From a virus, in IMG/VR virus record IMGVR_UViG_3300030451_005897, positions 1-36,810 of that record: a stretch of DNA of 36,810 nt; one strand, written 5' to 3'. The notes under the pieces were generated by a model that was not told the origin of the DNA, did no database searches, and saw nothing but the letters and a program-made list of their open reading frames with translations. Positions 10-31,274 of the stretch are shown piece after piece; positions within the stretch are counted from its first letter, which is position 1; every line of letters begins with the position of its first letter. Position numbers and translations under genes: made by a program.

Positions 10-26
10 AGTATACCTTAGTTCCT
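10..26 (-). promoter_or_regulatory. AGGAAC-type promoter P1
   Basis: Minus strand AGGAAC (26-21), 5-nt spacer, -10 box TATACT (15-10), then 6 nt to an ATG at 3-1. The box overlaps the TAG stop of the lipoprotein gene. The predicted transcript is leaderless. Confidence 0.75.
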
Positions 27-171
27 AATTCGTTACTTTAAAATCTTTTCTTTCCATAATCCAACTACCACCGGTACTTATTGGCTCTTTTAAATTAATT
101 ACAGATGATTGCATTGTTTTACATCCTGACAACATTGCCAATAATACGATTCCTAAAATTATTTTACGCAT
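25..171 (-). CDS. small lipoprotein, 48 aa
   Basis: The product begins with a classic lipoprotein signal: a basic start (MRK), a hydrophobic stretch, and the lipobox LSGC with the lipidated cysteine at residue 17. About 31 mature residues follow, with no recognisable domain. It should be exported and anchored in the cell envelope. The start overlaps the stop of the upstream gene (ATGCGTAA), with a GGAG Shine-Dalgarno just upstream; the TAG stop runs into promoter P1. Envelope lipoproteins of phages can alter superinfection or lysis behaviour, but that role is not shown here. Confidence 0.75.
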   Translation of the reverse strand: MRKIILGIVLLAMLSGCKTMQSSVINLKEPISTGGSWIMERKDFKVTN

Positions 172-469
172 AACTTTCTCCTTTATATGGGTTACGATCA
201 TAGACTCCTCTTCCGCAAGGGGTAAATTTACAATCCATTACCCTAACATAACCAGCATCTGAAACTTTAACCCTGTTATAATAACCTTTTGCTTTTAATT
301 GATTACTTAAAACGTACTCAGCATCGACAGGTTCAAAGTTAGAAACAAAACCTAACGTACGAACTTCTTCTCCATCTATCATTTTTCCATTATTATTAGT
401 CCAACTAATTCCGGAATAAAAAGGAGTATCTCTAAATATTTTTCTTACAGTTTTAGTATCAGCAAACAT
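164..469 (-). CDS. hypothetical protein, 101 aa
   Basis: I do not recognise this soluble-looking protein. It is rich in Tyr, Asn and Arg, has two cysteines near the C-terminus (CKFTPCGRG) and no membrane segment. Its ATG shares bases with the preceding stop (TAATG), so translational coupling is likely. It is the middle gene of a three-gene unit read from promoter P2: 68-aa protein, this gene, then the lipoprotein. Confidence 0.7.
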   Translation of the reverse strand: MFADTKTVRKIFRDTPFYSGISWTNNNGKMIDGEEVRTLGFVSNFEPVDAEYVLSNQLKAKGYYNRVKVSDAGYVRVMDCKFTPCGRGVYDRNPYKGESYA

Positions 470-675
470 TAACTAGCCTCTTTCATAATACATAAACGCT
501 CAACTTCATAAGGTTCCAATCTCAGAAGAACTTTATTTCGATCGTGCGTTGAATGAACTCTATTTTTATCTATAACAACGGTTACGAATTCATCATTAGG
601 ACCTTTACTAAGTTTTAATGAACCGAAATTTTCAATTATATTATCTAAATTATCTTTTGTAACCGTTAAACTCAT
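469..675 (-). CDS. hypothetical protein, 68 aa, leaderless start
   Basis: No family is recognised. The protein is small and charged, with no membrane segment or clear motif. The start at 675 is supported by promoter P2, whose -10 box ends 6 nt before the ATG; there is no Shine-Dalgarno because the mRNA should begin at or next to the ATG. It is the first gene of a three-gene unit ending with the lipoprotein at 25-171. Confidence 0.75.
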   Translation of the reverse strand: MSLTVTKDNLDNIIENFGSLKLSKGPNDEFVTVVIDKNRVHSTHDRNKVLLRLEPYEVERLCIMKEAS

Positions 676-681
676 ATAATA

Positions 682-698
682 ATTATATCTAAGTTCCT
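682..698 (-). promoter_or_regulatory. AGGAAC-type promoter P2
   Basis: AGGAAC (698-693), 5 nt, TATAAT (687-682), then 6 nt to the ATG at 675. The first A of the box is the last base of the TAA stop (700-698) of the upstream gene. Confidence 0.8.
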
Positions 699-901
699 TA
701 TTCTTCTAAACTATTCTTTATAGTATCTTGAAATTCATCCCACCCAAATCGTTCAGTATAAGTTACAACGAACCATAACCACCCTCTATGGTGGTAAACG
801 ACTCCTGTATCTTCATGCTTTCCTTCATACTCTAATTCAACTCGTTGCCAGAACTTAGGTTCAAAGTCAGTCAGATCAATAATATATTTTCCTATTCTCA
901 T
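698..901 (-). CDS. hypothetical protein, 67 aa
   Basis: Unrecognised small protein, strikingly aromatic (FWQRVELEYE, HHRGWLWFVVTYTERFGW). It looks like one compact domain without a membrane segment. It starts 1 nt after the stop of the 135-aa gene upstream and is probably read from promoter P3. Its TAA stop overlaps promoter P2. Confidence 0.75.
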   Translation of the reverse strand: MRIGKYIIDLTDFEPKFWQRVELEYEGKHEDTGVVYHHRGWLWFVVTYTERFGWDEFQDTIKNSLEE

Positions 902-902
902 A

Positions 903-1310
903 TTAATCAGCTAAAACTTTTACAGGGTCGCTTTCATTTGCAAAGTCCGGCCACTCTGCATCGCAGTAATCAATCGGGTACCTTCCGTCATAAAGTTTTT
1001 CAATATCTAAACCAAACCTCTCAAGCTCATCTTTCTTATCGTTATCATACTGAGCAGCTATAATACTTACAGCATAACTTCTTTCAGTACCGACTCCAGC
1101 ATAAGGATAAACCTTATGAAAAAAATCACTATCCCCATGACTCAACATTTCAAAGAAAGTTTCCTTTTCAAAAGTATCCTGGCTATGAATAAACTTTCTC
1201 ATAGCTTTTGCGTCTTGAGAAGCTACTAAGTTAATCATTTTAGAGTAACGATTAACATCCTCAAGTTTAGAGTTAATCGAATCGGTAAGTTGCTTTATTA
1301 GGTTATTCAT
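903..1310 (-). CDS. hypothetical protein, 135 aa, leaderless start
   Basis: No family is recognised. The N-terminal third (residues 1-45) looks helical and possibly coiled coil; the C-terminal half is acidic and aromatic. There is no membrane segment. The start at 1310 fits promoter P3: the ATG comes exactly 6 nt after TATAAT, with no Shine-Dalgarno. It heads a two-gene unit with the 67-aa gene at 698-901. Confidence 0.75.
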   Translation of the reverse strand: MNNLIKQLTDSINSKLEDVNRYSKMINLVASQDAKAMRKFIHSQDTFEKETFFEMLSHGDSDFFHKVYPYAGVGTERSYAVSIIAAQYDNDKKDELERFGLDIEKLYDGRYPIDYCDAEWPDFANESDPVKVLAD

Positions 1311-1316
1311 GCAATT

Positions 1317-1333
1317 ATTATATCACAGTTCCT
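1317..1333 (-). promoter_or_regulatory. AGGAAC-type promoter P3
   Basis: AGGAAC (1333-1328), 5 nt (TGTGA), TATAAT (1322-1317), 6 nt to the ATG at 1310. It lies 7 nt after the stop of the 43-aa membrane protein gene. Confidence 0.8.
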
Positions 1334-1339
1334 CTTTTC

Positions 1340-1471
1340 CTATATAATAATTACTGCACAAACAACTGCTATTGTAAAGCATAATATAGCAGCAAACAAT
1401 AAATCTTTTCTTTGCTGATCATCATAAGATACAGAATGCATTTTAATATATCTTCTTTTTTTCTTTACCAT
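1340..1471 (-). CDS. single-pass membrane microprotein, 43 aa
   Basis: The protein has a strongly basic N-terminus (MVKKKRRYIK), a short polar linker and one C-terminal hydrophobic helix (about residues 24-43) rich in Ala, Ile and Val. The basic face predicts a cytoplasmic N-terminus. The start overlaps the upstream stop (ATGGTAA) and has a strong AGGAGG Shine-Dalgarno inside the upstream gene. Function is unknown; small membrane proteins like this are common among host-takeover or lysis-modulating genes, but nothing specific is visible. Confidence 0.7.
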   Translation of the reverse strand: MVKKKRRYIKMHSVSYDDQQRKDLLFAAILCFTIAVVCAVIII

Positions 1472-1626
1472 CTGGATCTTCCTCCTGATCGTGACATTTG
1501 AAATGCTAAATTAGCTTTACGTTTTCGTTCTTCTTCAGCTTCTTTACGGAAAATATCAGTATAATTTCCATATTGAAGATTACGCGTTCTATTTGATATT
1601 ACTTGTTGTTTACCTGATCTACTCAT
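1465..1626 (-). CDS. basic hypothetical protein, 53 aa, leaderless start
   Basis: A very basic, Arg/Ser-rich small protein: it begins MSRSGKQQ and ends with a similar SRSGGRSRW tail, with an EAEEERKRK charged helix in the middle. The composition suggests nucleic-acid binding, which is inference. The start is fixed by promoter P4, whose -10 ends 6 nt before the ATG. The sequence coding its C-terminus also supplies the Shine-Dalgarno of the next gene, which it overlaps. Confidence 0.7.
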   Translation of the reverse strand: MSRSGKQQVISNRTRNLQYGNYTDIFRKEAEEERKRKANLAFQMSRSGGRSRW

Positions 1627-1632
1627 AATTAA

Positions 1633-1649
1633 ATTATATCACTGTTCCT
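1633..1649 (-). promoter_or_regulatory. AGGAAC-type promoter P4
   Basis: AGGAAC (1649-1644), 5 nt (AGTGA), TATAAT (1638-1633), 6 nt to the ATG at 1626. The box overlaps the TAG stop (1650-1648) of the 162-aa gene. Confidence 0.8.
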
Positions 1650-2136
1650 AATATCCCATTTCATCAACTTCAGTTAAATGACTCATACTCTGACCTTCAG
1701 TCATTTTTTCTTCTTCAAAAAAATATTCAAAGTTTAAGTAACTTTCACTATTATCTTTTACAGGAGCATCTCTATCAGGGTCATAAACGTTTTCCGGAAT
1801 CGAAGTACTTAGACCTATAGCAGACATCTCTTCTTTTACTCTTCGTTTCAAGAGAGCTTCAACTCGTCTATTAATTAATACGCACAAAATATCATCATCA
1901 ATTATATTTTCAAAATCATGCATTTGCACTGAATATGATTCTTTATTCCCTTCATAACGCTCTTTAATAATATTTTTTATCTCTGAAACTTTACGAGGAA
2001 AACCAAACCGGAAAAATTCTTCACCATCAGTAAAAATATCATTACCTACTGGCTCTAATCCAGCATTTATACAATTGCGATATAAAGCAATTTTATCTTT
2101 TCTTTTTTCTTCTTCAGTTTTAGGTATCAATTTCAT
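1648..2136 (-). CDS. hypothetical protein, 162 aa, leaderless start
   Basis: Unrecognised soluble protein with a charged N-terminus (KLIPKTEEEKRKDK) and an acidic C-terminus (EYFFEEEKMTEG). A longer reading frame begins at 2169, but promoter P5 lies inside that extension and its -10 ends 6 nt before the ATG at 2136, so 2136 is the likely start. It is the first minus-strand gene next to the divergent late gene at 2205. Confidence 0.7.
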   Translation of the reverse strand: MKLIPKTEEEKRKDKIALYRNCINAGLEPVGNDIFTDGEEFFRFGFPRKVSEIKNIIKERYEGNKESYSVQMHDFENIIDDDILCVLINRRVEALLKRRVKEEMSAIGLSTSIPENVYDPDRDAPVKDNSESYLNFEYFFEEEKMTEGQSMSHLTEVDEMGY

Positions 2137-2142
2137 ACTTTT

Positions 2143-2159
2143 ATTATATGAGAGTTCCT
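2143..2159 (-). promoter_or_regulatory. AGGAAC-type promoter P5
   Basis: AGGAAC (2159-2154), 5 nt (TCTCA), TATAAT (2148-2143), 6 nt to the ATG at 2136. It stands back to back with the plus-strand late promoter at 2191. Confidence 0.8.
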
Positions 2160-2190
2160 TATTATACACATTTACTTTTCAATTTTTAAC

Positions 2191-2198
2191 TATAAATA
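2191..2198 (+). promoter_or_regulatory. T4-type late promoter
   Basis: An exact TATAAATA octamer, 6 nt before the ATG at 2205. If transcription begins where T4 late promoters start, the leader is essentially absent. Confidence 0.85.
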
Positions 2199-2204
2199 TT
2201 CATA

Positions 2205-5200
2205 ATGGCGCTTAACAAGATAGTTAAAGAAAATGAACTTAAGAAAACTCCCTATCATAGTTATAAATTTGTAGGAACGTTTCACGGAGAAAGACTTTAT
2301 GAAGAGTTTTACGACCAAGTAAAATACGATAGAGATAAAAAGCATTATGAAGAGCGTCAAGTTATTATTGATAACAAAACAACTATAGATAAGAATCTAA
2401 TCTATGAAAATATTATAGACTTAACTCCAGAACCTGTAGTAACATATTCTGTTCGACCTAATTATGAAACTAATAGATTGATAGTTGAAGCTTCAGATGG
2501 GAACGTAACTAATATTCAATGGACGCACAATTTGCTTAAATGGCAAATTAATGATAACGTTTTAGTGTTTAGAGAAATGAATAGAGAGACTAATGAAATG
2601 TATGATAGGTTTTATAATCTTAAAACTAATACAGCAGTACAATCTAGAAAAGTCTTATTAGAAAATAGAGATCGAAATCCTGATCCTGATCCTGAAAGCG
2701 CTGAAGAAGGAGGATCAGATTATTCAACTCCAGTACCTGGCCCCTACTTTGCTTACTTAGCAGGTGGTTATTATGATACTGGATTACGTTTTAATAATAT
2801 CGATATGCAATATAATTCATACGCTGATGATAGTGGTACTAATTTTTCTAGAAAAACAGGTCAATACCCATTAGGTGGATTTTTTGCTAAAAAATACTTT
2901 AATCAAACATATACGCAAACATGGGGCGAAGCTATACCTAACCCAGCCGATTGGAGTAGCGTAGAGCTTTATAATGAATATAAAGATATAGGTTATCCTT
3001 TATCACTAATTAATGAATCATATAGTGCCCATAAACATTATTGGGAATTTACTTTTGAACCAGATGATAGAGAAGAATCTAATGCATTATTTTTTACTTT
3101 CAGTAATTATTTTCCATCGCTAACAGGGTATGGGTCACATACGATGTACGTTAATCCTAAACAGCGTTCAGTACAATTCATTGCTACATCGGCATTAACT
3201 TTATTTGATCAAACAAAATTCCCTACTATTCCTCATAGTTATGATACTTGGTTTCTTTTCAACACTGAAACTTATTTTAGATTAAGTGCTTTTTATAATG
3301 AATCTCCAGATAATAAATATACTTTCAGATCTGTAATTGAACCTCAAGATTCAGGAGAAGAAGTAGTTTCATTATATATGAATGATGTTAAATTAACTAA
3401 TCATTATGTTCAAGGAGGACCTAATTCATCTATATATGATCATCATAATTTAGTATATGGTTATACACATACTAATTCTATTTCAGCAAATGATCCTAAT
3501 TTTGGTAGTAGTAGAACTTTAGTCAATGGTGTAAAACCTTTTGATTGGTTGTCAGGGTTAGATAGTAATAGCATTACTTTTAATGAAAGTTTTGGTATGG
3601 CTAAAGAATATTTGTATGGGGGAAGTTTGCGAAGTAGACCAAGTCAAGATTTTTATGGTGTAGTAAGAGATATGAAATTAGGTACAGATATTAAAGGTGA
3701 TTTATATCACTTCCCTCTTACTCAAGATACAGATGAGTTTACTGGAATATACAAAGAAAATATAGGTACTAATAGTTATGATGAATCATTGTTAAATTTA
3801 AAATATGGGTATGATACTTCATTTGTGTCTATAGGTGACAATAAAGATGTTAATGGTTATGATGAGGCCATTTTATCAGGTAGAAAAATGTATAGATTTG
3901 GAGGAGATATTGGTAATGGTGCATTTAGAAATAAAAACGATAAAGAACTTAATAATGAAGAGAAATTTGAAATACCAAGTAAATTTGAAAATCCTTTATG
4001 GAGTAAACGAAAACCTAAAAGATATTCAATAGATGTTAAACACCCTTTTGATCAAAGTTTAGTTGAAAATGCTTTATCTAATTTAACTCCAGATTACTTT
4101 TCAACTGCAATGTATATATTATCAACTGAAAAATATTCATTAAGTGCCGGATCTCCAATCATTAGAAATGTACACGGAGGTTACTCTAATGCTTCTGTTA
4201 GAGCAGCAAATGTTGATGCTAAAAATAACGTACAAAACAAATTATCAAATAAAGAAATGAATTTTAATACTCAATCATATCCATTTTGGAATGATTTAAA
4301 ACCTGGTAGTTATAATATAAAAAGAAATCCTGATTGTTGGTATAATAAAAAAGCTATTACTTGTTTTTCAGTTATGGCTGAAGTACATCCTTTTAGAACA
4401 TCATTTGTATTACTTTCTCCTAGACACGTTATGTCAGTTACACATATTAGAGATGACTTTGATGATTCTTTTTGGAATGATGGAGATACTATTATACCAT
4501 TCATGAATATGAATAATGAGTTTGTTGAACCTTGTACTAATGCATATATAGATCTATCATCAGTAGCTATTGATGCTAATGGTACATTAAAAACAAATAA
4601 TCAAGGAATTGATTATTCTATATTTCATTTAACTGAAGATGTAACATTATCTGGAATTGAAGTGGTTAAGTTTTTACCTAGAGATCAATTACCTAAAAAA
4701 GAACGACAAAGTAACGGTATTTATTACAATACAAATAAACATACTAAATTTGATTTTAACCCTGTACCATATGGAGTTAGACCCAATAAAGAAGGAATGT
4801 TTGCTATTGAACATATTAATTTTAACGGTTCTTATGGATCAGATGGCTATACTAAAAATGGTCAAAAAACGATAATAGGTACTCCAGATCCTCAATACTT
4901 GCAACCAAGTTTTAAATGGGGCTCACAAAACGTAGATAAAAATAATGAAAGAACTGGTGATAGCAGTAGACCGGTATTTATACCTCACGGTGAAGAATTA
5001 ATTTTTGTAGGCATGGTACAAAATACTCAAGTTAGTAGTACGTATGGTCATGATAACCAATGGGTAGATTATAATTTAGAAGAAGATACATATGTTGATA
5101 GAAAAATACCAAAACAAATAGGTAACAGTGGTTCTGATACTACACTTACAAATGGCTTTACAGCAATGAGTAATGAAACTTATTGGGTACAACAACAACT

Positions 5201-5372
5201 TCATAATGTTGATGTAGCATTTACAACTCTAACTATTGACTTAGTAGATGATATTCAAGCAGCAATGAATAAATTAAGTGATGATAAAGGCACTCAAAGA
5301 TATGAATTACAATATATGAAAGATATTGTAATACCTGAAGTAGATCAGGTAGATAAAGTAACACAATTTTAA
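2205..5372 (+). CDS. large virion-type protein with trypsin-like protease domain, 1055 aa
   Basis: A late gene, probably a tail appendage or adhesin. Residues 1-160 are charged and start with MALNKIVKEN; an acidic DPDPDPES linker follows near 165; a long Tyr/Asn/Ser-rich beta region runs to about 690. From about 715 to 930 there is a chymotrypsin-fold signature: SPRHVMSVTHI with His747, GIDYSIF with Asp803 and GDSSRPVF with Ser920, in the correct order and plausible spacing. The exact GDSG glycine is replaced by Ser. It stands alone on the plus strand between early-type blocks, and its end overlaps the convergent gene at 5369-5488 by 4 nt. Protease activity is inferred; the domain could be a degenerate binding module. 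Confidence 0.75.
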   Translation: MALNKIVKENELKKTPYHSYKFVGTFHGERLYEEFYDQVKYDRDKKHYEERQVIIDNKTTIDKNLIYENIIDLTPEPVVTYSVRPNYETNRLIVEASDGNVTNIQWTHNLLKWQINDNVLVFREMNRETNEMYDRFYNLKTNTAVQSRKVLLENRDRNPDPDPESAEEGGSDYSTPVPGPYFAYLAGGYYDTGLRFNNIDMQYNSYADDSGTNFSRKTGQYPLGGFFAKKYFNQTYTQTWGEAIPNPADWSSVELYNEYKDIGYPLSLINESYSAHKHYWEFTFEPDDREESNALFFTFSNYFPSLTGYGSHTMYVNPKQRSVQFIATSALTLFDQTKFPTIPHSYDTWFLFNTETYFRLSAFYNESPDNKYTFRSVIEPQDSGEEVVSLYMNDVKLTNHYVQGGPNSSIYDHHNLVYGYTHTNSISANDPNFGSSRTLVNGVKPFDWLSGLDSNSITFNESFGMAKEYLYGGSLRSRPSQDFYGVVRDMKLGTDIKGDLYHFPLTQDTDEFTGIYKENIGTNSYDESLLNLKYGYDTSFVSIGDNKDVNGYDEAILSGRKMYRFGGDIGNGAFRNKNDKELNNEEKFEIPSKFENPLWSKRKPKRYSIDVKHPFDQSLVENALSNLTPDYFSTAMYILSTEKYSLSAGSPIIRNVHGGYSNASVRAANVDAKNNVQNKLSNKEMNFNTQSYPFWNDLKPGSYNIKRNPDCWYNKKAITCFSVMAEVHPFRTSFVLLSPRHVMSVTHIRDDFDDSFWNDGDTIIPFMNMNNEFVEPCTNAYIDLSSVAIDANGTLKTNNQGIDYSIFHLTEDVTLSGIEVVKFLPRDQLPKKERQSNGIYYNTNKHTKFDFNPVPYGVRPNKEGMFAIEHINFNGSYGSDGYTKNGQKTIIGTPDPQYLQPSFKWGSQNVDKNNERTGDSSRPVFIPHGEELIFVGMVQNTQVSSTYGHDNQWVDYNLEEDTYVDRKIPKQIGNSGSDTTLTNGFTAMSNETYWVQQQLHNVDVAFTTLTIDLVDDIQAAMNKLSDDKGTQRYELQYMKDIVIPEVDQVDKVTQF

Positions 5373-5488
5373 TCTTTAAACGTAATATAAGCGTAATAAA
5401 ACCAAGCAGGTAAAGCAAGAACTATTAACCAAAACCATTCATAGTTATCTATTGTCATAAGATCTATCATTAGTTCAGTTACGTCCAT
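5369..5488 (-). CDS. membrane microprotein, 39 aa
   Basis: An acidic N-terminus (MDVTELMIDLM) is followed by one aromatic hydrophobic segment, about residues 18-36 (FWLIVLALPAWFYY). It is the last gene of a minus-strand chain in which each start overlaps the previous stop; this start lies 10 nt inside the upstream gene. Its stop overlaps the convergent late gene's stop. Function unknown. Confidence 0.6.
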   Translation of the reverse strand: MDVTELMIDLMTIDNYEWFWLIVLALPAWFYYAYITFKD

Positions 5489-5643
5489 TGTGCTTCATTA
5501 TCCTTTGCAGAACGTTTTATTCTTTTCCATGCTTGTTTAATAATTTTTATTTCTGAACACCCTGCACCGTCTTCAGCTTCAACTACTTCAATCTCTCCTT
5601 TGACGCACATCTCTACTATTTTTAAACAATCATCAAAATTCAT
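5479..5643 (-). CDS. hypothetical protein, 54 aa
   Basis: A small, soluble-looking protein: an acidic first half (VVEAEDGAGCSE) and a basic second half (IIKQAWKRIKRSAKDN). No family is recognised. It starts with an ATGA overlap with the upstream 45-aa gene, and its end overlaps the next start by 10 nt, so the three tiny genes at 5369-5777 form one coupled unit. Confidence 0.65.
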   Translation of the reverse strand: MNFDDCLKIVEMCVKGEIEVVEAEDGAGCSEIKIIKQAWKRIKRSAKDNEAQWT

Positions 5644-5777
5644 CTAGGGTCGCTCGCTAATATAACTGCTAATGCACATACATGAACAACTGATACGCTA
5701 CTCCAAAAACCTAACTTAAGGTCCATATAAAGTGAAATAGCTAATAATGACACTGTTATGTATTTAAATATTTTCAT
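5640..5777 (-). CDS. membrane microprotein, 45 aa
   Basis: Hydrophobic throughout, with a basic start (MKIFKY) and two hydrophobic stretches at about residues 6-18 and 23-41. It is either a hairpin of two short membrane helices or one long segment. The ATG overlaps the upstream stop as TAATG and the end overlaps the next start as ATGA. Function unknown. Confidence 0.65.
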   Translation of the reverse strand: MKIFKYITVSLLAISLYMDLKLGFWSSVSVVHVCALAVILASDPR

Positions 5778-6034
5778 TAATCTTTTAATCTGTTAATAAT
5801 GTGAGTAGTTTCTCCAAGGTTTTCAATCTTCTTTAATACTTCTTCATATGAGCCAACTACATGGATTCTTTTATCGGTTGATAAAAGTATTTCAGCTCGT
5901 TTTGTATTGTGCGGAGCTGAACAAATATAATCAATTCTTTGCAAAGGTATAAGAACTTTATTTTCCGGAACCTTGATATCTTTATCATCTTTATCCCAGT
6001 CATGAACTGGAATTCTATAACACTCTATAAACAT
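5777..6034 (-). CDS. hypothetical protein, 85 aa
   Basis: Unrecognised protein that looks like a compact alpha/beta domain with alternating hydrophobic and charged residues (VLIPLQRIDYICSAP) and a charged C-terminal helix. The start at 6034 is 6 nt after a TATAAT box, as at the leaderless genes, but the upstream element is only AGGAT. It may head the unit of three tiny genes to 5369, or be read from P6. Confidence 0.7.
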   Translation of the reverse strand: MFIECYRIPVHDWDKDDKDIKVPENKVLIPLQRIDYICSAPHNTKRAEILLSTDKRIHVVGSYEEVLKKIENLGETTHIINRLKD

Positions 6035-6040
6035 AATTAT

Positions 6041-6056
6041 ATTATAATATCATCCT
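6041..6056 (-). promoter_or_regulatory. possible weak variant of the AGGAAC promoter
   Basis: TATAAT (6046-6041) lies 6 nt before the ATG at 6034, as in the leaderless promoters. The upstream element reads AGGAT (6056-6052) instead of AGGAAC and the spacing differs by one base. It overlaps the TGA stop of the preceding gene. Confidence 0.35.
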
Positions 6057-6256
6057 ATTGAATGTCCACCATTAACTCTTTCACCTTCTTCGTCCAATCT
6101 AGAGCCAGCTATATGAATGTTAGTTAAATAATTGCGTCTTACTTCATTTGGATTATAATTACATTTAGGAAGCATCTTTAAATAATAATCATACGGTGGT
6201 TTAGGCTCTTGAAGATTATCGTAAAGCTTCTTAAACATTTTTAAATCTTCAGCCAT
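6050..6256 (-). CDS. small protein with PKP...KMLP...EVRR motif, 68 aa
   Basis: No named family is recognised. Residues 18-46 carry the pattern PKP, then KMLP, then N-x-N, then EVRR. The same pattern occurs in the 49-aa product of 6434-6583 on the other side of the bS21 gene, so the two are likely paralogues. The protein overlaps the bS21 gene end by 8 nt and is probably translated with it. A shared role with bS21 is possible but is only suggested by position. Confidence 0.7.
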   Translation of the reverse strand: MAEDLKMFKKLYDNLQEPKPPYDYYLKMLPKCNYNPNEVRRNYLTNIHIAGSRLDEEGERVNGGHSIG

Positions 6257-6434: not shown

Positions 6435-6583
6435 TATTTCCCCTTATTAGTTCTTTCTATCCACTTACGATGCACTTCTAATGCATTAAAATTAAATACA
6501 GGTAACATTCGTTTAAATGTCTCCCAGTCAGGTTTAGGTAACGGAAGATCTTGCCATAACTTCTTTCTATCTTCAGGAATCAT
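6434..6583 (-). CDS. small protein with PKP...RMLP...EVHR motif, 49 aa
   Basis: The product begins MIPEDRKKLW and contains PKP-DWETFKRMLP, an N-F-N and EVHRKWIE. This is the same motif order as in the 68-aa product at 6050-6256, so the two appear to be diverged copies flanking bS21. The start lies 1 nt after the zinc-ribbon gene's stop; the stop overlaps the bS21 start. Function unknown. Confidence 0.7.
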   Translation of the reverse strand: MIPEDRKKLWQDLPLPKPDWETFKRMLPVFNFNALEVHRKWIERTNKGK

Positions 6584-6584
6584 A

Positions 6585-6833
6585 TTAACCTCTCATAAAG
6601 TTTTTAACGCTCGATCTCGGACCATTCGGTATAAAATACTTCTTATTCGCATCCCAACTCTCAGCACTCATTATTTCAATACTACCAGCAGTCTTATGCC
6701 CGAATACCATACGACCTTTTACTTTCGGAGTACCTATTTTACTAGCACAGCTAACACAAATTTTCATACCCATTTCAGCACGTTCAAAGGGTATAACATT
6801 ACCACAACCGCAAAATTTTACTTCATAACTCAT
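6585..6833 (-). CDS. C4 zinc-ribbon protein, DksA/TraR-like, 82 aa, leaderless
   Basis: Four cysteines form a zinc-ribbon pattern: C8-x-C10-G, then C26-x2-C29, with an intervening PFERAEMG segment similar to the DksA/TraR zinc finger; a basic C-terminus follows. It may bind RNA polymerase or nucleic acid, but the coiled coil that DksA uses is missing, so the name is only by resemblance. The start is set by promoter P6, whose -10 lies 6 nt upstream. A longer frame reading back into the tRNA-Arg gene is not credible. It heads the unit containing bS21. Confidence 0.7.
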   Translation of the reverse strand: MSYEVKFCGCGNVIPFERAEMGMKICVSCASKIGTPKVKGRMVFGHKTAGSIEIMSAESWDANKKYFIPNGPRSSVKNFMRG

Positions 6834-6839
6834 ATATAT

Positions 6840-6856
6840 ATTATAACTAAGTTCCT
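6840..6856 (-). promoter_or_regulatory. AGGAAC-type promoter P6
   Basis: AGGAAC (6856-6851), 5 nt (TTAGT), TATAAT (6845-6840), 6 nt to the ATG at 6833. It lies 18 nt downstream of the tRNA-Arg CCA end. Confidence 0.8.
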
Positions 6857-6862
6857 TAAAAT

Positions 6863-6870
6863 TATTTATA
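6863..6870 (-). promoter_or_regulatory. exact TATAAATA octamer, possible late promoter
   Basis: An exact late-promoter octamer on the minus strand between tRNA-Arg and promoter P6. It would give a second, late transcript of the zinc-ribbon/bS21 unit with a leader of about 25 nt. In such AT-rich DNA a chance occurrence is quite possible. Confidence 0.35.
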
Positions 6871-6873
6871 AAA

Positions 6874-6950
6874 TGGCACGCCCGGCAGGATTCGAACCTG
6901 CGACCCACGGATTAGAAGTCCGTTGCTCTATCCAACTGAGCTACGAGCGC
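6874..6950 (-). tRNA. tRNA-Arg (anticodon UCU)
   Basis: A full cloverleaf with encoded CCA: acceptor GCGCTCG pairing with CGGGCGT (two G-U pairs), a normal D-arm, anticodon stem ACGGA/TCCGT with loop CTTCTAA, and T-arm GCAGG-TTCGAAT-CCTGC. It reads AGA, a codon heavily used here. Its first base (6950) is the last base of the TAG stop of the upstream gene, so it must be cut from a longer mRNA. Confidence 0.95.
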
Positions 6951-7165
6951 TATAAAATAAGTTTATCTGGATCACCTTGCTTCCAATTATGAAGTTTTCT
7001 ATTTATAATATGACACTCTTCTTCAGCTATCATAGCTTTATTTCTTAACCCTTCGTATCTTTTACTATTCGGGTGGCATTTATTTAAATTATTGAGGTAT
7101 CTTAAAAAGTTCGATCGTGCTTTTTTGTACTCAGATTCTAATTGTATTTTTGATTTTCTACCCAT
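6950..7165 (-). CDS. basic hypothetical protein, 71 aa
   Basis: The protein starts MGRKSKIQLESEYKKARSNF and is Lys/Arg/Asn-rich and largely helical, suggesting nucleic-acid or ribosome association; no family is recognised. An AAGGA Shine-Dalgarno lies about 10 nt before the ATG. The stop codon TAG abuts tRNA-Arg, sharing its last base. It is near the end of the long unit from promoter P7. Confidence 0.7.
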   Translation of the reverse strand: MGRKSKIQLESEYKKARSNFLRYLNNLNKCHPNSKRYEGLRNKAMIAEEECHIINRKLHNWKQGDPDKLIL

Positions 7166-7186
7166 TTTATAAGATTCCTTAAGTTT

Positions 7187-7276
7187 TTATGATTTTTCGT
7201 AGAATCCCCCTTGTGAGATTAACGGAGAATCAATTTGTTTGGTGTTAGGTAACTGATTATATACCTGGAAATTCAT
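7187..7276 (-). CDS. possible microprotein, 29 aa
   Basis: A tiny frame whose ATG overlaps the upstream TGA stop (ATGA), as elsewhere in this unit. The product (MNFQVYNQLP start, GGFYEKS end) has no recognisable motif and no Shine-Dalgarno. It fills an otherwise empty 107-nt gap in a region where genes nearly always touch. It may be real or just leader sequence. Confidence 0.4.
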   Translation of the reverse strand: MNFQVYNQLPNTKQIDSPLISQGGFYEKS

Positions 7277-7479
7277 TGTTTTTTACGGTTTTTACGTTTT
7301 TTCTTTATATCATGTAACCATTTAAAAGTAGGTTCTCCATAGTCTTGCTTTACTTCAAACCCGTGATAAGCTTTATTTGGTTCGTTAGAAAAGTTTTTTT
7401 CATTCCAAGCTCCAGAAGAAACATTGATTGTTTTATTATGATGCTTGACATTATCGTCATTAATGTTTGTCATAACCAT
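7273..7479 (-). CDS. hypothetical protein, 68 aa
   Basis: Hydrophilic, Asn/His/Lys-rich, with a strongly basic tail (KKKRKNRKKQ) that suggests nucleic-acid binding. The first ATG lies 20 nt inside the upstream gene; a second ATG two codons on (7473) is an alternative start. No family is recognised. Confidence 0.6.
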   Translation of the reverse strand: MVMTNINDDNVKHHNKTINVSSGAWNEKNFSNEPNKAYHGFEVKQDYGEPTFKWLHDIKKKRKNRKKQ

Positions 7480-7681
7480 ACATAGCCCATTTAAATTTTT
7501 TACTCTTTATAAAAACTGTAGGATTAAAAATGTAATTGAATATTCTAACTTGATCATTTAAATTGTCGTATGAATTTATTTCATTTAAAACTTCAACTAT
7601 ATCTTTACCGAGCCATTCAGCATAATGAATAGTTGCTTCAGCAATATCTTCCCATTCTTGATTAAGATTATCTAAAATCAT
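7460..7681 (-). CDS. hypothetical protein, 73 aa
   Basis: An acidic, helical first half (LNQEWEDIAEATIHYAEWLG) and an aromatic second half. No family is recognised. The start overlaps the previous stop as ATGA, consistent with coupled translation in the P7 unit. Confidence 0.7.
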   Translation of the reverse strand: MILDNLNQEWEDIAEATIHYAEWLGKDIVEVLNEINSYDNLNDQVRIFNYIFNPTVFIKSKKFKWAMYGYDKH

Positions 7682-7965
7682 TTAACTAATGTAACCCACG
7701 GAGAAAATATATCATTAAACTTATCGACAATTTTCTTTTTTGATACGTTAGGTATAGCTGAATCTTTTATTTCGTTTTGACATTCATTTACGTCCCAATC
7801 AAGTTGTCTGCATGTTGTTTTTGCTAAACTTAGACAAAAAGTATATGCTTCTTTTCCGGAACGTACGTTATGTTCTTTTAATGAAATAGTCTGTCTACAC
7901 TCTTCTGGTACTTCAGGGTTAACATAATAAATGCCCCCTGGTTCATATTCTTTTCCTTTACTCAT
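7678..7965 (-). CDS. Cys-containing hypothetical protein, 95 aa
   Basis: Unrecognised soluble protein with four cysteines (residues about 18, 44, 52 and 62) spaced irregularly, not a clear zinc motif. The start overlaps the upstream stop (ATGAGTAA) and the end overlaps the next start (ATGA). It is the third gene of the P7 unit. Confidence 0.7.
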   Translation of the reverse strand: MSKGKEYEPGGIYYVNPEVPEECRQTISLKEHNVRSGKEAYTFCLSLAKTTCRQLDWDVNECQNEIKDSAIPNVSKKKIVDKFNDIFSPWVTLVK

Positions 7966-8245
7966 AAATCGGACTCTTTCTATCTTTTCTATATCCTATA
8001 CGCATATTATATAACTCTTTTGCTCTAGAATAACCTTTATCCATCGCCTCTTGAGGAGTTTTAAACCCATAAAAATATTCAGCAGCTGACGTTTGTAACA
8101 TATACTCGTTAGGGTTCCGTCCTTGCTTTATATCGTAATCAAGATCAGTTCTTCTTATAGTCATATAAAAGGTGTAATAATCCTTGCAAGTCCAAGTCTC
8201 ATTAACACCTTCTACAAATCTATTTCTATCCGATTTCACTTTCAT
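7958..8245 (-). CDS. hypothetical protein, 95 aa
   Basis: No named family is recognised. The protein is aromatic-rich (CKDYYTFYMTIRR) and ends in a basic helix (RAKELYNMRIGYRKDRK); a FKTPQEAMDKGYSRAKEL segment looks like a helical repeat. It overlaps the upstream gene by 20 nt. Confidence 0.7.
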   Translation of the reverse strand: MKVKSDRNRFVEGVNETWTCKDYYTFYMTIRRTDLDYDIKQGRNPNEYMLQTSAAEYFYGFKTPQEAMDKGYSRAKELYNMRIGYRKDRKSPIYE

Positions 8246-8420
8246 CTGGAAACTTACCTAATCGTTTATAGTTAGTCCATAAACCTCTAAGCTTAGGATC
8301 AGTATTTTTCCATTTCAAATAATGATTCCAAAGCATAGTAGTTCTTTCAGTAGGGGTTAAAACCTCTCTTCTTTTACGACGAGGTTTAAATTTAAACTTA
8401 ACATTATTATTTTCAGCCAT
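8226..8420 (-). CDS. basic hypothetical protein, 64 aa
   Basis: A small basic protein with a PRRKRREVL patch near residue 15 and a helical TERTTMLWNHYLKWK segment. Two in-frame ATGs exist. AAGGAG directly abuts the first (8426) but is 6 nt before the second (8420), so 8420 is chosen. It is the first gene after promoter P7, which here gives a leader of about 14-20 nt with a Shine-Dalgarno rather than a leaderless start. Confidence 0.7.
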   Translation of the reverse strand: MAENNNVKFKFKPRRKRREVLTPTERTTMLWNHYLKWKNTDPKLRGLWTNYKRLGKFPDESEIG

Positions 8421-8440
8421 TTGCATCTCCTTAAATAATA

Positions 8441-8457
8441 ATTATAATATAGTTCCT
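8441..8457 (-). promoter_or_regulatory. AGGAAC-type promoter P7 (with Shine-Dalgarno leader)
   Basis: AGGAAC (8457-8452), 5 nt (TATAT), TATAAT (8446-8441), then about 20 nt containing AAGGAG before the ATG at 8420. The box overlaps the TAG stop (8458-8456) of the gene upstream. Confidence 0.78.
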
Positions 8458-8650
8458 AATATAAATTTGTATCTTTACTATATTTTTCAAACATCCACAT
8501 CATTTCTATTTCAAAATCTTTATCAGATTTAATAACTGTATCAGACTTTTTTAATGGAGATGTAGATAATTCATTTTCAAACATTAACACAGTTTCATTT
8601 TCATATACGAAATAAAACCCATTGTATAATCTAGTTTTTTTATCACTCAT
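8456..8650 (-). CDS. hypothetical protein, 64 aa
   Basis: Starts MSDKKTRLYNGFYFVYENET; an amphipathic beta start is followed by an acidic Met-rich helix (FEIEMMWMFEKY). No family is recognised. Its ATG is 4 nt after the stop of the membrane gene upstream, and its stop overlaps promoter P7. Confidence 0.7.
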   Translation of the reverse strand: MSDKKTRLYNGFYFVYENETVLMFENELSTSPLKKSDTVIKSDKDFEIEMMWMFEKYSKDTNLY

Positions 8651-8654
8651 TTTT

Positions 8655-8837
8655 TTACCTATAAGGATGGGTATCCTTTTTATTATTTATTTTTGTATCA
8701 ATATTACTCTTCCAGAATACATTGATAAGAACGTTAGTTAGAACTCCAAAATATATACCTAAACTTAGATTAAAAAATGGAGTTAAGATTGTAATTACTA
8801 GAAGTAATTTAATTATATTTTCTTTTGTAGCTATCAT
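8655..8837 (-). CDS. two-helix membrane protein, 60 aa
   Basis: Two hydrophobic segments, about residues 9-24 (IIKLLLVITILTPFF) and 26-42 (LGIYFGVLTNVLINVFW), with a charged C-terminal tail rich in Lys, Asp and Asn. It should sit in the cytoplasmic membrane as a hairpin with both ends inside. No Shine-Dalgarno is evident. Function unknown; a holin-like role is conceivable but unsupported. Confidence 0.7.
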   Translation of the reverse strand: MIATKENIIKLLLVITILTPFFNLSLGIYFGVLTNVLINVFWKSNIDTKINNKKDTHPYR

Positions 8838-8847
8838 TAAATTACGT

Positions 8848-9033
8848 TTAACCGTTTAATAATTCAATAACTGAATCTTGATTAACTTCAACAATAGAGC
8901 TTGCACTCTTCTTTTCAGCTACTACGTAAATAATTTTACCGTCAAACTGTTTAATTTGTTTAACAGTACCGCTAGAGACATCATTAATAGTTTTGAAATT
9001 TATATAATCTCCTTCGTTATATTTAGCGCTCAT
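8848..9033 (-). CDS. hypothetical protein, 61 aa, KOW/SH3-like barrel
   Basis: The pattern YNEGDYINFKTINDVSSGTVKQI followed by KIIYVVAEKK and SIVEVNQDSVIEL looks like a small SH3-like or KOW-type beta barrel: a 'GD-x-V' start, a 'G-x-V' turn and alternating strands. That assignment is by pattern only. No recognised promoter; it is probably read through from the gene upstream. Confidence 0.65.
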   Translation of the reverse strand: MSAKYNEGDYINFKTINDVSSGTVKQIKQFDGKIIYVVAEKKSASSIVEVNQDSVIELLNG

Positions 9034-9091
9034 ATATAATATTTTAATCTATAATATTAGTATTTCAACTATTTTAAATTAAAAAAAATTA

Positions 9092-9310
9092 CTAAACATC
9101 AAGCTGTTCTTGAGCTGTAAGTAAGTTCTGGTAAGCGCATTCAAAGGAGATTAACTTCTCTCCTAGTTCTTTTTCATGATTAGTATAAGGTTCATGTGGA
9201 TGCATTTCTCTTAAAATATAATAGTTTTCAAATTCCGGATCATCTAAAACCTTATCCATATCAACCGAGGTTTTAAATTTATTATTTTCTTTATCTATTT
9301 CTATATGCAT
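9092..9310 (-). CDS. hypothetical protein, 72 aa
   Basis: An acidic protein (MHIEIDKENNKFKTSVDMD) with a long probable C-terminal helix (EKELGEKLISFECAYQNLLTA). No family is recognised. It starts a few bases after the U-tract of a terminator, so its expression may depend on terminator read-through; the TATAAT directly upstream overlaps the ATG itself and is badly placed as its promoter. Confidence 0.65.
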   Translation of the reverse strand: MHIEIDKENNKFKTSVDMDKVLDDPEFENYYILREMHPHEPYTNHEKELGEKLISFECAYQNLLTAQEQLDV

Positions 9311-9314
9311 TATA

Positions 9315-9343
9315 TAAAAAAAGCCGAGGTTTTACCCTCGGCT
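9315..9343 (-). terminator. Rho-independent terminator
   Basis: Minus strand: 8-bp GC-rich stem (AGCCGAGG/CCTCGGCT), 6-nt loop, then a run of six or seven U. It ends the transcript of the DUF932-type gene (stop at 9357). Confidence 0.9.
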
Positions 9344-9356
9344 ATCCTTTCTATCT

Positions 9357-10358
9357 TTAGGCTAATTCAGCTAGTTTCAACAATTTCTTACCACGTTCTA
9401 TTGTTCGTTCGGCTAATTGCTCGTTATTAATCAAAGTCCAAAACGATGACTTATTCATACGACCTAAGCCATGCTCTGAAGAATAGTATTGATTACCTTT
9501 ATTCTTACCTTTACCACGAGTACTATTATGCGTATAGTAATCAGTTACTGCAGAGAATGCATCTGCATAACTCTCACCCCGGTTACCTGCACCCTTAACA
9601 AAGAGTTCATTTAACGTTTCAACAGTATTTAAGCAACGAGTACTTAAACCTTCTTTAGGGTTATTACGCATTAAGAATCCAGTAAACAACTCAGTAGCTT
9701 CTTTCTTCTTAATTCTTTTCTTAACTAGAGTTTCGAACTTCTTCTTGAAGTCTTCTTGCGTACCTAAGAATGCATCTACGACATTACCTAAGTCAGCTAA
9801 CTTCATCTCAACATCACCTTTATGAACTACTGATCCAATCTGATCACTATTTAAGTTGCAAGTAAAAGTATTTTCACAAACAGTACAAACATTGGTATTA
9901 TTTACCCAAAGTTTAGAAGTCTGATCATGAGCATTACCGAAGTTTAGATAGTCACGAAACTCTCTATCTCCAATCTTATATTCACTCTTTCCCGCAAGAC
10001 TAACTGAAGCAAATACTTTACCTCGATTTGCTACCGAACCGATACTTTCAAGCTTAGCTTTAGGTAAACGTTTCATTGCATCACTAACAAGATCTAAAAA
10101 CTGCTCATTAGTAATATGTTTGTAAGTAGGGCTCATAGGACGTCCAACGATTTCATCATCGTCAGTCGCAACTAAGATACCATAACCAGTATCAATCTCT
10201 TCACCTTCCTTATTAATATACGTCAAAGGTTGCCTCTCTACATCCCAAGTAGATAAGAAATTATCTTTAACGTCAATGACGGGCATTATTTCCGTCAAGT
10301 CATGCCAGGCTTGCTTTAAGCCTTGCTGTGTATCTCTCTCTGTTATATTATGTGCCAT
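9357..10358 (-). CDS. DUF932 (phage/plasmid-like TIGR03299) protein, 333 aa
   Basis: The length and layout fit the DUF932 family: a WHDLTEIMPV-type start, a middle GKVFASVSLAG segment, then LNFGNAHDQTS and a CTVCENTFTCN region, followed by a Lys-rich helical C-terminal half. Such proteins occur widely in phages and plasmids; their biochemical role is not established, though they often lie near recombination or replication genes. Here the upstream gene is a RadA-like ATPase. It has its own promoter (P8), a Shine-Dalgarno leader (AAAAGGA) and its own terminator, so it is a single-gene transcription unit. Confidence 0.8.
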   Translation of the reverse strand: MAHNITERDTQQGLKQAWHDLTEIMPVIDVKDNFLSTWDVERQPLTYINKEGEEIDTGYGILVATDDDEIVGRPMSPTYKHITNEQFLDLVSDAMKRLPKAKLESIGSVANRGKVFASVSLAGKSEYKIGDREFRDYLNFGNAHDQTSKLWVNNTNVCTVCENTFTCNLNSDQIGSVVHKGDVEMKLADLGNVVDAFLGTQEDFKKKFETLVKKRIKKKEATELFTGFLMRNNPKEGLSTRCLNTVETLNELFVKGAGNRGESYADAFSAVTDYYTHNSTRGKGKNKGNQYYSSEHGLGRMNKSSFWTLINNEQLAERTIERGKKLLKLAELA

Positions 10359-10373
10359 AAGTGCTTTTTCCTT
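10359..10373 (-). repeat. 15-bp direct repeat, copy A (leader of the DUF932 gene)
   Basis: AAGGAAAAAGCACTT on the minus strand, carrying the Shine-Dalgarno just before the ATG at 10358. An identical copy lies at 10415-10429, upstream of promoter P8. Confidence 0.85.
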
Positions 10374-10389
10374 TTAATTTATATTATTA

Positions 10390-10406
10390 ATTATATATAC
10401 GTTCCT
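10390..10406 (-). promoter_or_regulatory. AGGAAC-type promoter P8 (with leader)
   Basis: AGGAAC (10406-10401), 5 nt (GTATA), TATAAT (10395-10390), then about 31 nt to the ATG at 10358, including a Shine-Dalgarno. It is flanked by the two copies of the 15-bp repeat. Confidence 0.78.
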
Positions 10407-10414
10407 TATTTCTC

Positions 10415-10429
10415 AAGTGCTTTTTCCTT
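10415..10429 (-). repeat. 15-bp direct repeat, copy B
   Basis: Identical to the DUF932-gene leader at 10359-10373 but located upstream of promoter P8, with no start codon after it. Confidence 0.85.
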
Positions 10430-10482
10430 AAAAGTTTAAAAAAGTTTAAGCAGTTTATAGTCTTGCTTAGGACCGTACCTAA

Positions 10483-11391
10483 TTATGAATGCTTATAAAT
10501 TGCGTTCTGACCTTTGCCAAACTTAATTAACTTACCGTTAAGAACTAAATCTCTCAATCGGTTATAAGCTCTTTGATAATCAACATCTAAAGCTTCCATA
10601 ACTACTTGAGCAGTTAGATGAGGCGGCTCTTTTATTGCCATGATCTTATTTTCCTCATCCTTCTTACGATTCTTCTTAGAAGGAGCTTTACTTTCACTCT
10701 CTTCAATCTTAACCGGGTTACCAAAGTCATAACCTTTAGCTCCTAAGAACAACGTTACATCATTCAGAGCACCGAAACGATTCTTGCTGAAACCAATCTT
10801 ACGAGCATCATCAGCAATATCACCTTCAATCGAAATTTCCATATTCACATCAACAGTATGCGGAACGATCGTACTACCTTTCAACTTACCATCTTTAGTC
10901 AAATGCATTACGAAAAAGATCGTGCACTCATTATCTTTCGCAGCACGAGTCAATTTACTAACTGCATACTTTTCAAGAGCTCTGCTATTGAGCTTCTTAT
11001 GAGACGTTAGAGCTTGAAATGAATCAAATACCATCACATCGAAATCTTTCATTCGATCGCACAAAGTATCAATATCAGTCTCGTTAGCTATCTTAACGTT
11101 CTTAACACCAATACGATTACAAGTAAACGCTAACTGATAAGTATTTTCCTCACCACTTGCATAAGCTACTTCGTAACCATTTACCGACATACCTTCTAAC
11201 ATTTGCAATAAGAACGTAGTCTTACCACATCCAGCAGGAGCAGTTAAAGTAATACTGCTTCCTGGTAGTATACCATCACCGAATAATTCATCGACGACTT
11301 CGATACCAGACTTATAACGTCTATAAAACAGATCAGGTACTTTAATTTCCTTTACTGCTTTGAATTGAGTTGCTTCATAATTTAGGTTCAT
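10483..11391 (-). CDS. RadA-like recombination ATPase with winged-helix tail, 302 aa
   Basis: RecA-superfamily ATPase. Residues 28-45 match the RadA/Sms opening; Walker A is APAGCGKT (51-58), Walker B VMVFDS (119-124), and the RadA-specific KNRFG motif is at 203-207. HLTKDGKLKG resembles the RadA segment before it. RadA loads as a ring helicase extending recombination intermediates. This version lacks the N-terminal C4 zinc finger and the C-terminal Lon-like domain; after a basic linker (KKNRKKDEENK) it ends in a winged-helix-like domain (about 245-302). A DnaB-like helicase role is an alternative. Promoter P9 and AAGGAG precede the ATG. Confidence 0.8.
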   Translation of the reverse strand: MNLNYEATQFKAVKEIKVPDLFYRRYKSGIEVVDELFGDGILPGSSITLTAPAGCGKTTFLLQMLEGMSVNGYEVAYASGEENTYQLAFTCNRIGVKNVKIANETDIDTLCDRMKDFDVMVFDSFQALTSHKKLNSRALEKYAVSKLTRAAKDNECTIFFVMHLTKDGKLKGSTIVPHTVDVNMEISIEGDIADDARKIGFSKNRFGALNDVTLFLGAKGYDFGNPVKIEESESKAPSKKNRKKDEENKIMAIKEPPHLTAQVVMEALDVDYQRAYNRLRDLVLNGKLIKFGKGQNAIYKHS

Positions 11392-11413
11392 ATTTTTATC
11401 TCCTTATACTACA

Positions 11414-11430
11414 ATTATATCACTGTTCCT
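11414..11430 (-). promoter_or_regulatory. AGGAAC-type promoter P9 (with leader)
   Basis: The box reads AGGAAC (11430-11425), followed by 5 nt (AGTGA), TATAAT (11419-11414), then a 22-nt leader carrying AAGGAG before the ATG at 11391. Confidence 0.8.
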
Positions 11431-11441
11431 ATTTGTGCGTT

Positions 11442-11645
11442 CTACCATCTACGGAACTTCGATTGCATTCCAAGCGTCATTGTTTCATCAATACGCTTTT
11501 GTGCGCTTCTAGAAACTGATACGTTAGATTTTTCAGACCACCGGAATGCTTCAGCTTCCTTAAGTACTGTTTCGTGTTTAGTACGGGTCCTCGTTAAAAC
11601 AAAACCGAACATCGAATTAAAAGTTAAGTTATATTCTTTTTCCAT
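11442..11645 (-). CDS. basic hypothetical protein, 67 aa, leaderless
   Basis: Starts MEKEYNLTFNSMFGF and is rich in Arg, Ser and Thr, with a basic end (QSKFRRW). No family is recognised. Promoter P10 places the -10 box 5 nt before the ATG, so the mRNA should be leaderless. A single-gene unit ahead of the RadA-like gene. Confidence 0.72.
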   Translation of the reverse strand: MEKEYNLTFNSMFGFVLTRTRTKHETVLKEAEAFRWSEKSNVSVSRSAQKRIDETMTLGMQSKFRRW

Positions 11646-11650
11646 ACTGT

Positions 11651-11667
11651 ATTATATCACAGTTCCT
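11651..11667 (-). promoter_or_regulatory. AGGAAC-type promoter P10
   Basis: AGGAAC (11667-11662), 5 nt (TGTGA), TATAAT (11656-11651), 5 nt to the ATG at 11645. The TGA stop of the upstream gene lies inside the 5-nt spacer. Confidence 0.8.
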
Positions 11668-11821
11668 TTTCATACCAAAGCTTGTAGCACAGCTCATTCA
11701 TCTTTTCCGGAAAATGAATAAAGGTCCAAAATGCAAAACTTAAAGATAAATATATCGTTACAGGTATCCATAATATTATTATCAAAAACCCTGATATTAG
11801 TTCGTATAATAGTTTATTCAT
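11657..11821 (-). CDS. membrane protein, 54 aa
   Basis: A small protein with one long hydrophobic stretch, residues about 10-36 (FLIIILWIPVTIYLSL...), enough for one or two membrane passes, followed by a short charged tail (PEKMNELCYKLWYEKEL). The start lies 8 nt after the -10 of promoter P11, so the leader is very short and lacks a Shine-Dalgarno. The stop codon lies within promoter P10. Function unknown. Confidence 0.7.
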   Translation of the reverse strand: MNKLLYELISGFLIIILWIPVTIYLSLSFAFWTFIHFPEKMNELCYKLWYEKEL

Positions 11822-11829
11822 ATTTTTTT

Positions 11830-11846
11830 ATTATATGTTCGTTCCT
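11830..11846 (-). promoter_or_regulatory. AGGAAC-type promoter P11
   Basis: AGGAAC (11846-11841), 5 nt (GAACA), TATAAT (11835-11830), 8 nt to the ATG at 11821. It begins a few bases after the CCA end of tRNA-Leu. Confidence 0.78.
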
Positions 11847-11848
11847 TA

Positions 11849-11935
11849 TGGTACTCATAGCCGGACTCGAACCAGCAAGACTTTACAGTCGACAGATTTT
11901 AAGTCTGTTGTGTTTACCAATTTCACCATATGAGC
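11849..11935 (-). tRNA. tRNA-Leu (anticodon UAA)
   Basis: An 87-nt class II tRNA with encoded CCA. Acceptor GCTCATA pairs with TATGAGT, anticodon stem ACAGA/TCTGT carries loop CTTAAAA, a long variable arm (GACT...AGTC) is present and the T-arm is GCTGG-TTCGAGT-CCGGC. It reads UUA, the dominant leucine codon here. Confidence 0.95.
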
Positions 11936-11982
11936 ATATAAATTAAATAAGAATATCATTATTTTAAAAATAACCTAACGAT

Positions 11983-11999
11983 AGTATATCTATGTTCCT
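11983..11999 (-). promoter_or_regulatory. AGGAAC-type promoter P12 (tRNA-Leu)
   Basis: AGGAAC (11999-11994), 5 nt (ATAGA), TATACT (11988-11983), about 48 nt before tRNA-Leu. Its box overlaps the plus-strand late promoter at 11999-12004 by one base. Confidence 0.72.
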
Positions 12000-14730: not shown

Positions 14731-14736
14731 ATTATA
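14731..14736 (-). promoter_or_regulatory. possible -10 box, leaderless spacing
   Basis: TATAAT (14736-14731) 6 nt before the ATG at 14724, without the AGGAAC element found elsewhere. Confidence 0.35.
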
Positions 14737-14770
14737 TATTACTAATTATTGTAATCAAGGATTTAATCGA

Positions 14771-31266: not shown

Positions 31267-31274
31267 TATAAATA
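31267..31274 (+). promoter_or_regulatory. late promoter (exact octamer)
   Basis: TATAAATA with 7 nt to the ATG at 31282. Confidence 0.85.

Follow-up and report, generated by a model that had tools for sequence, protein, structure and literature searches.

An AGGAAC-N5-TATAAT signal as a predicted promoter class of uncultured T4-like phages, with a spacer box in place of the -35 element

What is the short motif, AGGAAC-N5-TATA(A/C)T, that recurs in a stretch of phage DNA, and what reads it? The question arises from 36,810 nucleotides (nt) of the IMG/VR virus record IMGVR_UViG_3300030451_005897 (the window), a fragment of a T4-like myovirus with a T4-type terminase, a tail sheath, late promoters of the form TATAAATA, tRNA-Arg and tRNA-Leu. 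A first-pass annotation had reported twelve copies of the motif as promoters, and its coordinates are exact. All copies lie on the minus strand between positions 10 and 11999, with TATAAT at ten sites and TATACT at two. The predicted box promoters, with the genes downstream of them (protein lengths in amino acids, aa), are as follows.

10..26, minus strand: box promoter AGGAAC-TAAGG-TATACT; ATG at 3-1, 6 nt past the -10; the gene leaves the window
682..698, minus strand: box promoter; ATG at 675, 6 nt past the -10; gene 469-675, 68 aa
1317..1333, minus strand: box promoter with extended -10 TGA; ATG at 1310, 6 nt; gene 903-1310, 135 aa
1633..1649, minus strand: box promoter with extended -10 TGA; ATG at 1626, 6 nt; gene 1465-1626, 53 aa; box and TAG stop of the preceding gene overlap
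2143..2159, minus strand: box promoter; ATG at 2136, 6 nt; gene 1648-2136, 162 aa
6840..6856, minus strand: box promoter; ATG at 6833, 6 nt; gene 6585-6833, 82 aa, C4 finger-like
8441..8457, minus strand: box promoter, then a leader with AAGGAG; gene 8226-8426
10390..10406, minus strand: box promoter, then a 31-nt leader; DUF932 gene 9357-10358
11414..11430, minus strand: box promoter with extended -10 TGA, then a 22-nt leader with AAGGAG; gene 10483-11391 (AAA_25/DnaB-RadA-like ATPase)
11651..11667, minus strand: box promoter with extended -10 TGA; ATG at 11645, 5 nt; gene 11442-11645, 67 aa
11830..11846, minus strand: box promoter; ATG at 11821, 8 nt; gene 11657-11821, 54 aa
11983..11999, minus strand: box promoter AGGAAC-ATAGA-TATACT, upstream of a tRNA-Leu gene
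11849..11935, minus strand: tRNA-Leu (taa), downstream of the 11983 box

Twelve sites were observed in the window against 0.03 expected, and none of 100 shuffles gave twelve. Every minus-strand AGGAAC of the window (12/12) is followed by a -10 at exactly N5; none of the six plus-strand copies is, in agreement with the earlier reading. When two mismatches are allowed, 21 sites are found against 14.6 expected, and the extra sites are thus chance-like. The motif behaves as a promoter motif of strict register and strand, and its box differs from both the -35 hexamer and the MotA box, as had been proposed. Two statements of the first-pass annotation need amendment. It had set the motif apart from extended -10 elements, and an extended -10 (TGATATAAT) is present at 4 of the 12 sites. 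It had also placed all copies before small genes or a tRNA, whereas a 302-aa AAA ATPase and a 333-aa DUF932 protein are encoded downstream of boxes as well.

A feature absent from that annotation is the position of the start codon. At eight of the twelve sites an ATG stands 5-8 nt after the -10 hexamer (six at 6 nt, one at 5 and one at 8; binomial P ~2e-6 from the local ATG frequency), so that in most window sites the ATG coincides with the predicted transcription start. Leaders of 14-31 nt are present at three sites, with AAGGAG in two of them, and tRNA-Leu lies downstream of one. The leader-bearing sites and the tRNA-Leu site indicate that the motif acts as a promoter with or without a leader, which counts against a translational signal.

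The motif extends well beyond the window. A scan of IMG/VR with the motif followed by N6-ATG gave, from among the matches listed, 13 first relatives with 4-20 sites each, and a reversed-pattern control gave 0-1 per contig. Random scatter over positions and strands, which the first-pass annotation had named as contrary to its reading, is not seen; the sites are clustered and, but for one site in contig G013, one-stranded in 13/13 of these relatives, and lie on both strands of the larger contigs G019 and G021. A second scan with AAGGAACTCTRATATAAT, in which no ATG was required as a guard against circularity, added 101 new loci. Across these loci the spacer between AGGAAC and TATAAT is 5 nt in 347 cases, every other value between 0 and 19 occurs no more than 5 times, and the next start codon follows at 5, 6 or 7 nt in 90, 129 and 25 of 340 sites, respectively (244/340, 72%). 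Start codons at 4-8 nt are almost all ATG (113 ATG vs 2 TTG), and the ATG is the first possible start in frame for 231 of 269 boxed genes. Near-exact boxes number 405 in the N5 register and at most 4 at each other shift. The alignment of the sites gives WAAGGAACTCTGATATAATAA and a T at -1; around -35 no hexamer is conserved. The extended -10 bases T and G at -15/-14 are frequent in the relatives (55%/47%).

The box is conserved across very diverged phages, and the variants that it tolerates are NGGAAC (mostly A), ACGAAC in G006 and G023, and AGGAAA in G010. The DUF932 promoter of the window and that of its near relative G001 are identical in the box, the -10, the 20 bases before and the 33 after the motif; their sole difference falls inside N5 (GTATA vs TTAGA). 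As a separate observation, ACGAAC stands at many G006 and G023 sites alongside AGGAAC and may track a change in the reading factor.

None of seven cultured T4-like records has more than one site, a short-BLAST search with the consensus in 50,697 phage records found just partial matches among those listed, and no paper containing the motif terms was found in the literature. An extended form of the motif has one match in 84,980 bacterial and archaeal genomes, a near-absence that argues against a host promoter. The lone match (GTDB), in a 52% GC contig of a Ktedonobacteraceae metagenome-assembled genome with no second site, was taken as chance, and the host promoter idea was set aside. AGGAAC-N5-TATAAT is a signal of its own in a large uncultured group that is T4-like by its T4-type structural genes and late sigma. 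An affiliation to Far-T4/RM378 was rejected, the clade lying closer to relatives among the cyanophages and SAR11 phages. The extent of the clade goes beyond the first-pass annotation, as do the predicted leaderlessness and the exclusion of TTGAAA described below.

Standard sigma-70 promoters share the TATAAT hexamer, and the comparison of boxed and box-less starts shows where the two designs part. Twenty-seven related T4-like contigs contain 569 TATAMT-N5-7-ATG starts, 362 with the box and 207 without. TTGA at spacers of 15-19 nt accompanies 36% of the box-less starts and 4.1% of the boxed ones, against 2.8% in shuffles; at spacer 16 alone, the box-less starts include 65 TTGA/TTGC cases. The TTGACA-like -35 at 16-18 nt is accordingly not a feature of box promoters, and this difference in rate indicates that the box takes the place of the -35 element. 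Judged by sequence, AGGAAC and TTGAAA are mutually exclusive. The early-type promoters of the clade form two classes, TTGAAA-N16-TATAAT and AGGAAC-N5-TATAAT, and its late genes have TATAAATA. The TTGAAA class precedes the SSB and UvsX genes in G018 and G001, and also the gene of a gp55-like late sigma in G018, and its sites are dispersed. Boxes are grouped in the accessory region. The genes behind them are short ORFans (median 74 aa), that of an ATPase and, in two contigs (G005 and G034), that of an RpoD-like sigma. Two box-less starts of the second class lie in the window.

6041..6068, minus strand: box-less second-class promoter TGGACA-N16-TATAAT; ATG 6 nt downstream; gene 5777-6034
14731..14758, minus strand: box-less second-class promoter TTGATT-N16-TATAAT; ATG 6 nt downstream; gene 14524-14724

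The position of the start codon bears on translation. The +1 was predicted from the usual start, 7 nt after the -10; with an ATG 6 nt past the -10, the A of the ATG becomes the predicted +1, and the mRNAs from box promoters are probably leaderless in most cases. T4-type late promoters and a gp55-like late sigma are present in the clade, and a similar spacing is often found at the late promoters, three of them in the window.

2191..2198, plus strand: T4-type late promoter TATAAATA; ATG 6 nt downstream; gene 2205-5372
28948..28955, minus strand: T4-type late promoter TATAAATA; ATG 5 nt downstream
31267..31274, plus strand: T4-type late promoter TATAAATA; ATG 7 nt downstream; tail sheath gene 31282-33711

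A start lies 5-7 nt downstream of 39 of the 128 late motifs in the first 14 contigs. Two control octamers that are unrelated in sequence gave 7/287 and 4/234, a control that overlaps the late motif (ATAAATAT) gave 19/156, and one that contains a -10 (AATATAAT) gave 52/225. A nearby ATG (4-8 nt) is found at 0 of 18 late sites in T4, which differs in this from the clade, and at 5 of 16 in the SAR11 phage HTVC008M. These data suggest that late mRNAs are often leaderless too. Shine-Dalgarno (SD)-like sequences precede 8% of the clade's open reading frames (ORFs) that lack a leaderless signal, against a background of 12% (28 contigs, 1,462 ORFs with 100 aa or more), and 77% and 56% in T4 and HTVC008M, percentages that are rough because ORF starts were called mechanically. 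Most contigs show this depletion; the window is an exception, with an SD kept by 7 of its 22 ORFs. Absent SD use would suit a Bacteroidota host; such a host was not supported by promoter type (0/2797 genes with TTTG/TAnnTTTG). Only tentatively do we combine these strands into one picture, in which a leaderless rule for early-type, replication and late promoters and SD depletion would go together with a new phage activator at GGAAC, -22 to -18. Were it true, the leaderless rule would imply a matching adaptation or takeover of translation initiation.

The closest parallel in working is the T4 middle promoter (MotA box, AsiA), which likewise keeps the sigma-70 -10, sets a phage box in fixed register for the -35, and is one of three classes beside -35/-10 and TATAAATA. 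The MotA box, however, has its centre near -30, some 12 nt upstream of the -10, whereas the AGGAAC box stands at -23 to -18, separated by N5 only; the box sequences differ, no MotA homologue was detected, and the messages are predicted to be leaderless. The box promoter is T4-middle-like in its working but falls outside the MotA class by box position and protein. Promoters of extracytoplasmic function sigmas have GGAAC about 16-17 nt from the -10, not 5, and sigma-54 promoters (TGGCAC-N5-TTGCW) share the N5 geometry but not the AGGAAC and TATAAT sequences. Alphaproteobacterial GcrA promoters and lambdoid Q binding elements hold a protein-read site in the spacer, in register with the -10; the GcrA site is GANTC, a different sequence. 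Promoters of the Thermus phage phiYS40 are not known to carry more than a -10-like element. Its middle and late transcripts are leaderless (PMC3594737), a likewise leader-free use of a host-type polymerase, although leaderlessness is predicted here from spacing, and the present promoters differ by a second invariant box, another phage lineage and an early-type gene region.

We propose that the motif marks the promoter class of the accessory, early-type region in this clade. A box whose core, GGAAC, occupies -22 to -18 would stand in for the -35 beside a sigma-70-type -10 (TATAAT, often extended); transcription would start about 7 nt after the -10, mostly at the A of the start codon, to give a leaderless mRNA. 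A phage-encoded protein would bind the box and hold a host-type RNA polymerase in fixed register, in the mode of MotA in T4 but by means of an unrelated protein and with the box about 7 bp nearer to the -10. We regard it as probable that the class is of early type and is read by a host-type polymerase with a putative phage-encoded activator. MotA as the reader was rejected (PF09158 absent in 16 records, possibly fragments; T4 control 7e-71), as was GcrA (PF07750 absent in 20 records), and for a T7-type polymerase PF00940 gave no match in 14 records, where the positive control was likewise silent. An RpoD-like sigma as general reader was also dismissed, being present in some lineages only. These absences are soft because the contigs are fragments. 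A phage-encoded activator is favoured since MotA and GcrA were not detected, the RpoD-like sigma is patchy and bacterial and archaeal genomes are nearly empty of the extended form of the motif.

The 82-aa protein of the window (6585-6833, minus strand) has a CxC-x15-CxxC finger resembling those of DksA/TraR and occurs in 18 contigs, boxed in 9. It has no Pfam, PHROG or fold match, and was rejected as the reader, being conserved but not universal and having an AlphaFold model of low predicted template modelling score. A search for the factor by gene-family presence across contigs was abandoned, as the contigs are complementary fragments and no family is universal. Several points weigh against the proposed activator and leaderless start. 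No reading factor was found among the candidates tested; the finger protein is the sole early family shared by most contigs, and no copy of it was found in G002, G015, G021 or G038. Its low-confidence model matches no known fold. The 13 first relatives were mostly picked by an ATG-containing pattern, which the second scan corrects; the form used in the genome scan was narrow (TCYRA spacer, N6, ATG), and looser host use could escape it; and the +1 derives from standard -10 geometry.

The first-pass annotation had suggested a phage-encoded factor or an altered sigma contact. Something beyond standard sigma contacts is indeed likely, be it a phage factor or the polymerase itself. A less probable alternative to the activator is that the box is a basal element read by RNA polymerase itself (beta-prime zipper, sigma region 3) with no extra factor; as kin to the Z-element and the extended -10, it would form strong -35-less early promoters active from the first minutes of infection. 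The box region is of the small-ORF type that in T4 is transcribed at once by host polymerase, the box often occurs together with an extended -10, and conservation across very diverged phages would be expected if the reader were the conserved polymerase. Hosts, too, would be expected to use such an element, yet the genome scan gave one match, and we know of no polymerase-read spacer element of comparably strict sequence. The Z-element, a spacer sequence at -17/-18 that aids promoter recognition through contact with the beta-prime zipper (PMC5101437), likewise lies between -35 and -10, but the box, a hexamer of almost no variation, occupies -23 to -18, for the most part upstream of that contact.

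It is unlikely that a phage RpoD-like sigma with altered contacts reads AGGAAC-N5-TATAAT. Such sigmas occur in G005, G010/G031, G018 and G034, within the box-rich region, and two of their genes are boxed.

L165:17823-18725, plus strand: RpoD-like sigma gene of G010
L156:9940-11088, minus strand: RpoD-like sigma gene of G005; boxed
L338:2887-4020, plus strand: RpoD-like sigma gene of G034; boxed
L285:10743-11906, minus strand: RpoD-like sigma gene of G018, which also has a gp55-like late sigma

The protein has regions 1.2, 2, 3 and 4 (scanned in G010), and regions 2.4 and 4.2 of the G010 sigma are near-canonical. None was detected in the box-rich G019 (221 kb, about 31 boxes), G015, G021 and G038, which have gp55-like sigmas only, and a spacer of 5 bp leaves too little room for region 4 to bind at a -35 site. 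An altered sigma alone is disfavoured because the G010 protein is near-canonical and none was detected in G019. It is very improbable that the unit is a mobile repeated promoter cassette, or that it is no promoter at all and precedes genes by happenstance as a site of recombination or processing. Promoter cassettes are known from T4-like early regions, and the boxes are dense, sometimes near-identical in sequence and beside ORFan genes (many copies in G010); but N5 and the flanks vary freely while the box, -10 and ATG spacing is fixed, and a non-promoter would hardly account for the mutual exclusion with the -35. Chance or base composition might be invoked for an AT-rich genome in which TATAAT is common (128 copies in the window, both strands counted), a notion of negligible weight that the site counts, the reversed-pattern control and the spacer control already refute.

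The activator would entail an undescribed replacement of the -35 element, in which the DNA is contacted about 7 bp nearer to the -10 than in T4. The three classes are readable from sequence in abundant uncultured phages, fix the exact start codons of hundreds of small early genes that lack annotation, and offer a test case of a lytic phage that would run on leaderless mRNA.

Among the other genes of the window, those for proteins of 1055 aa (2205-5372, plus strand, behind a late promoter) and 689 aa (17467-19536, minus strand) have no Pfam match. An early-region protein of about 150 aa without a confident family (L286:4454-4909, minus strand) carries a HELRH-like metalloprotease motif and has 14 relatives.

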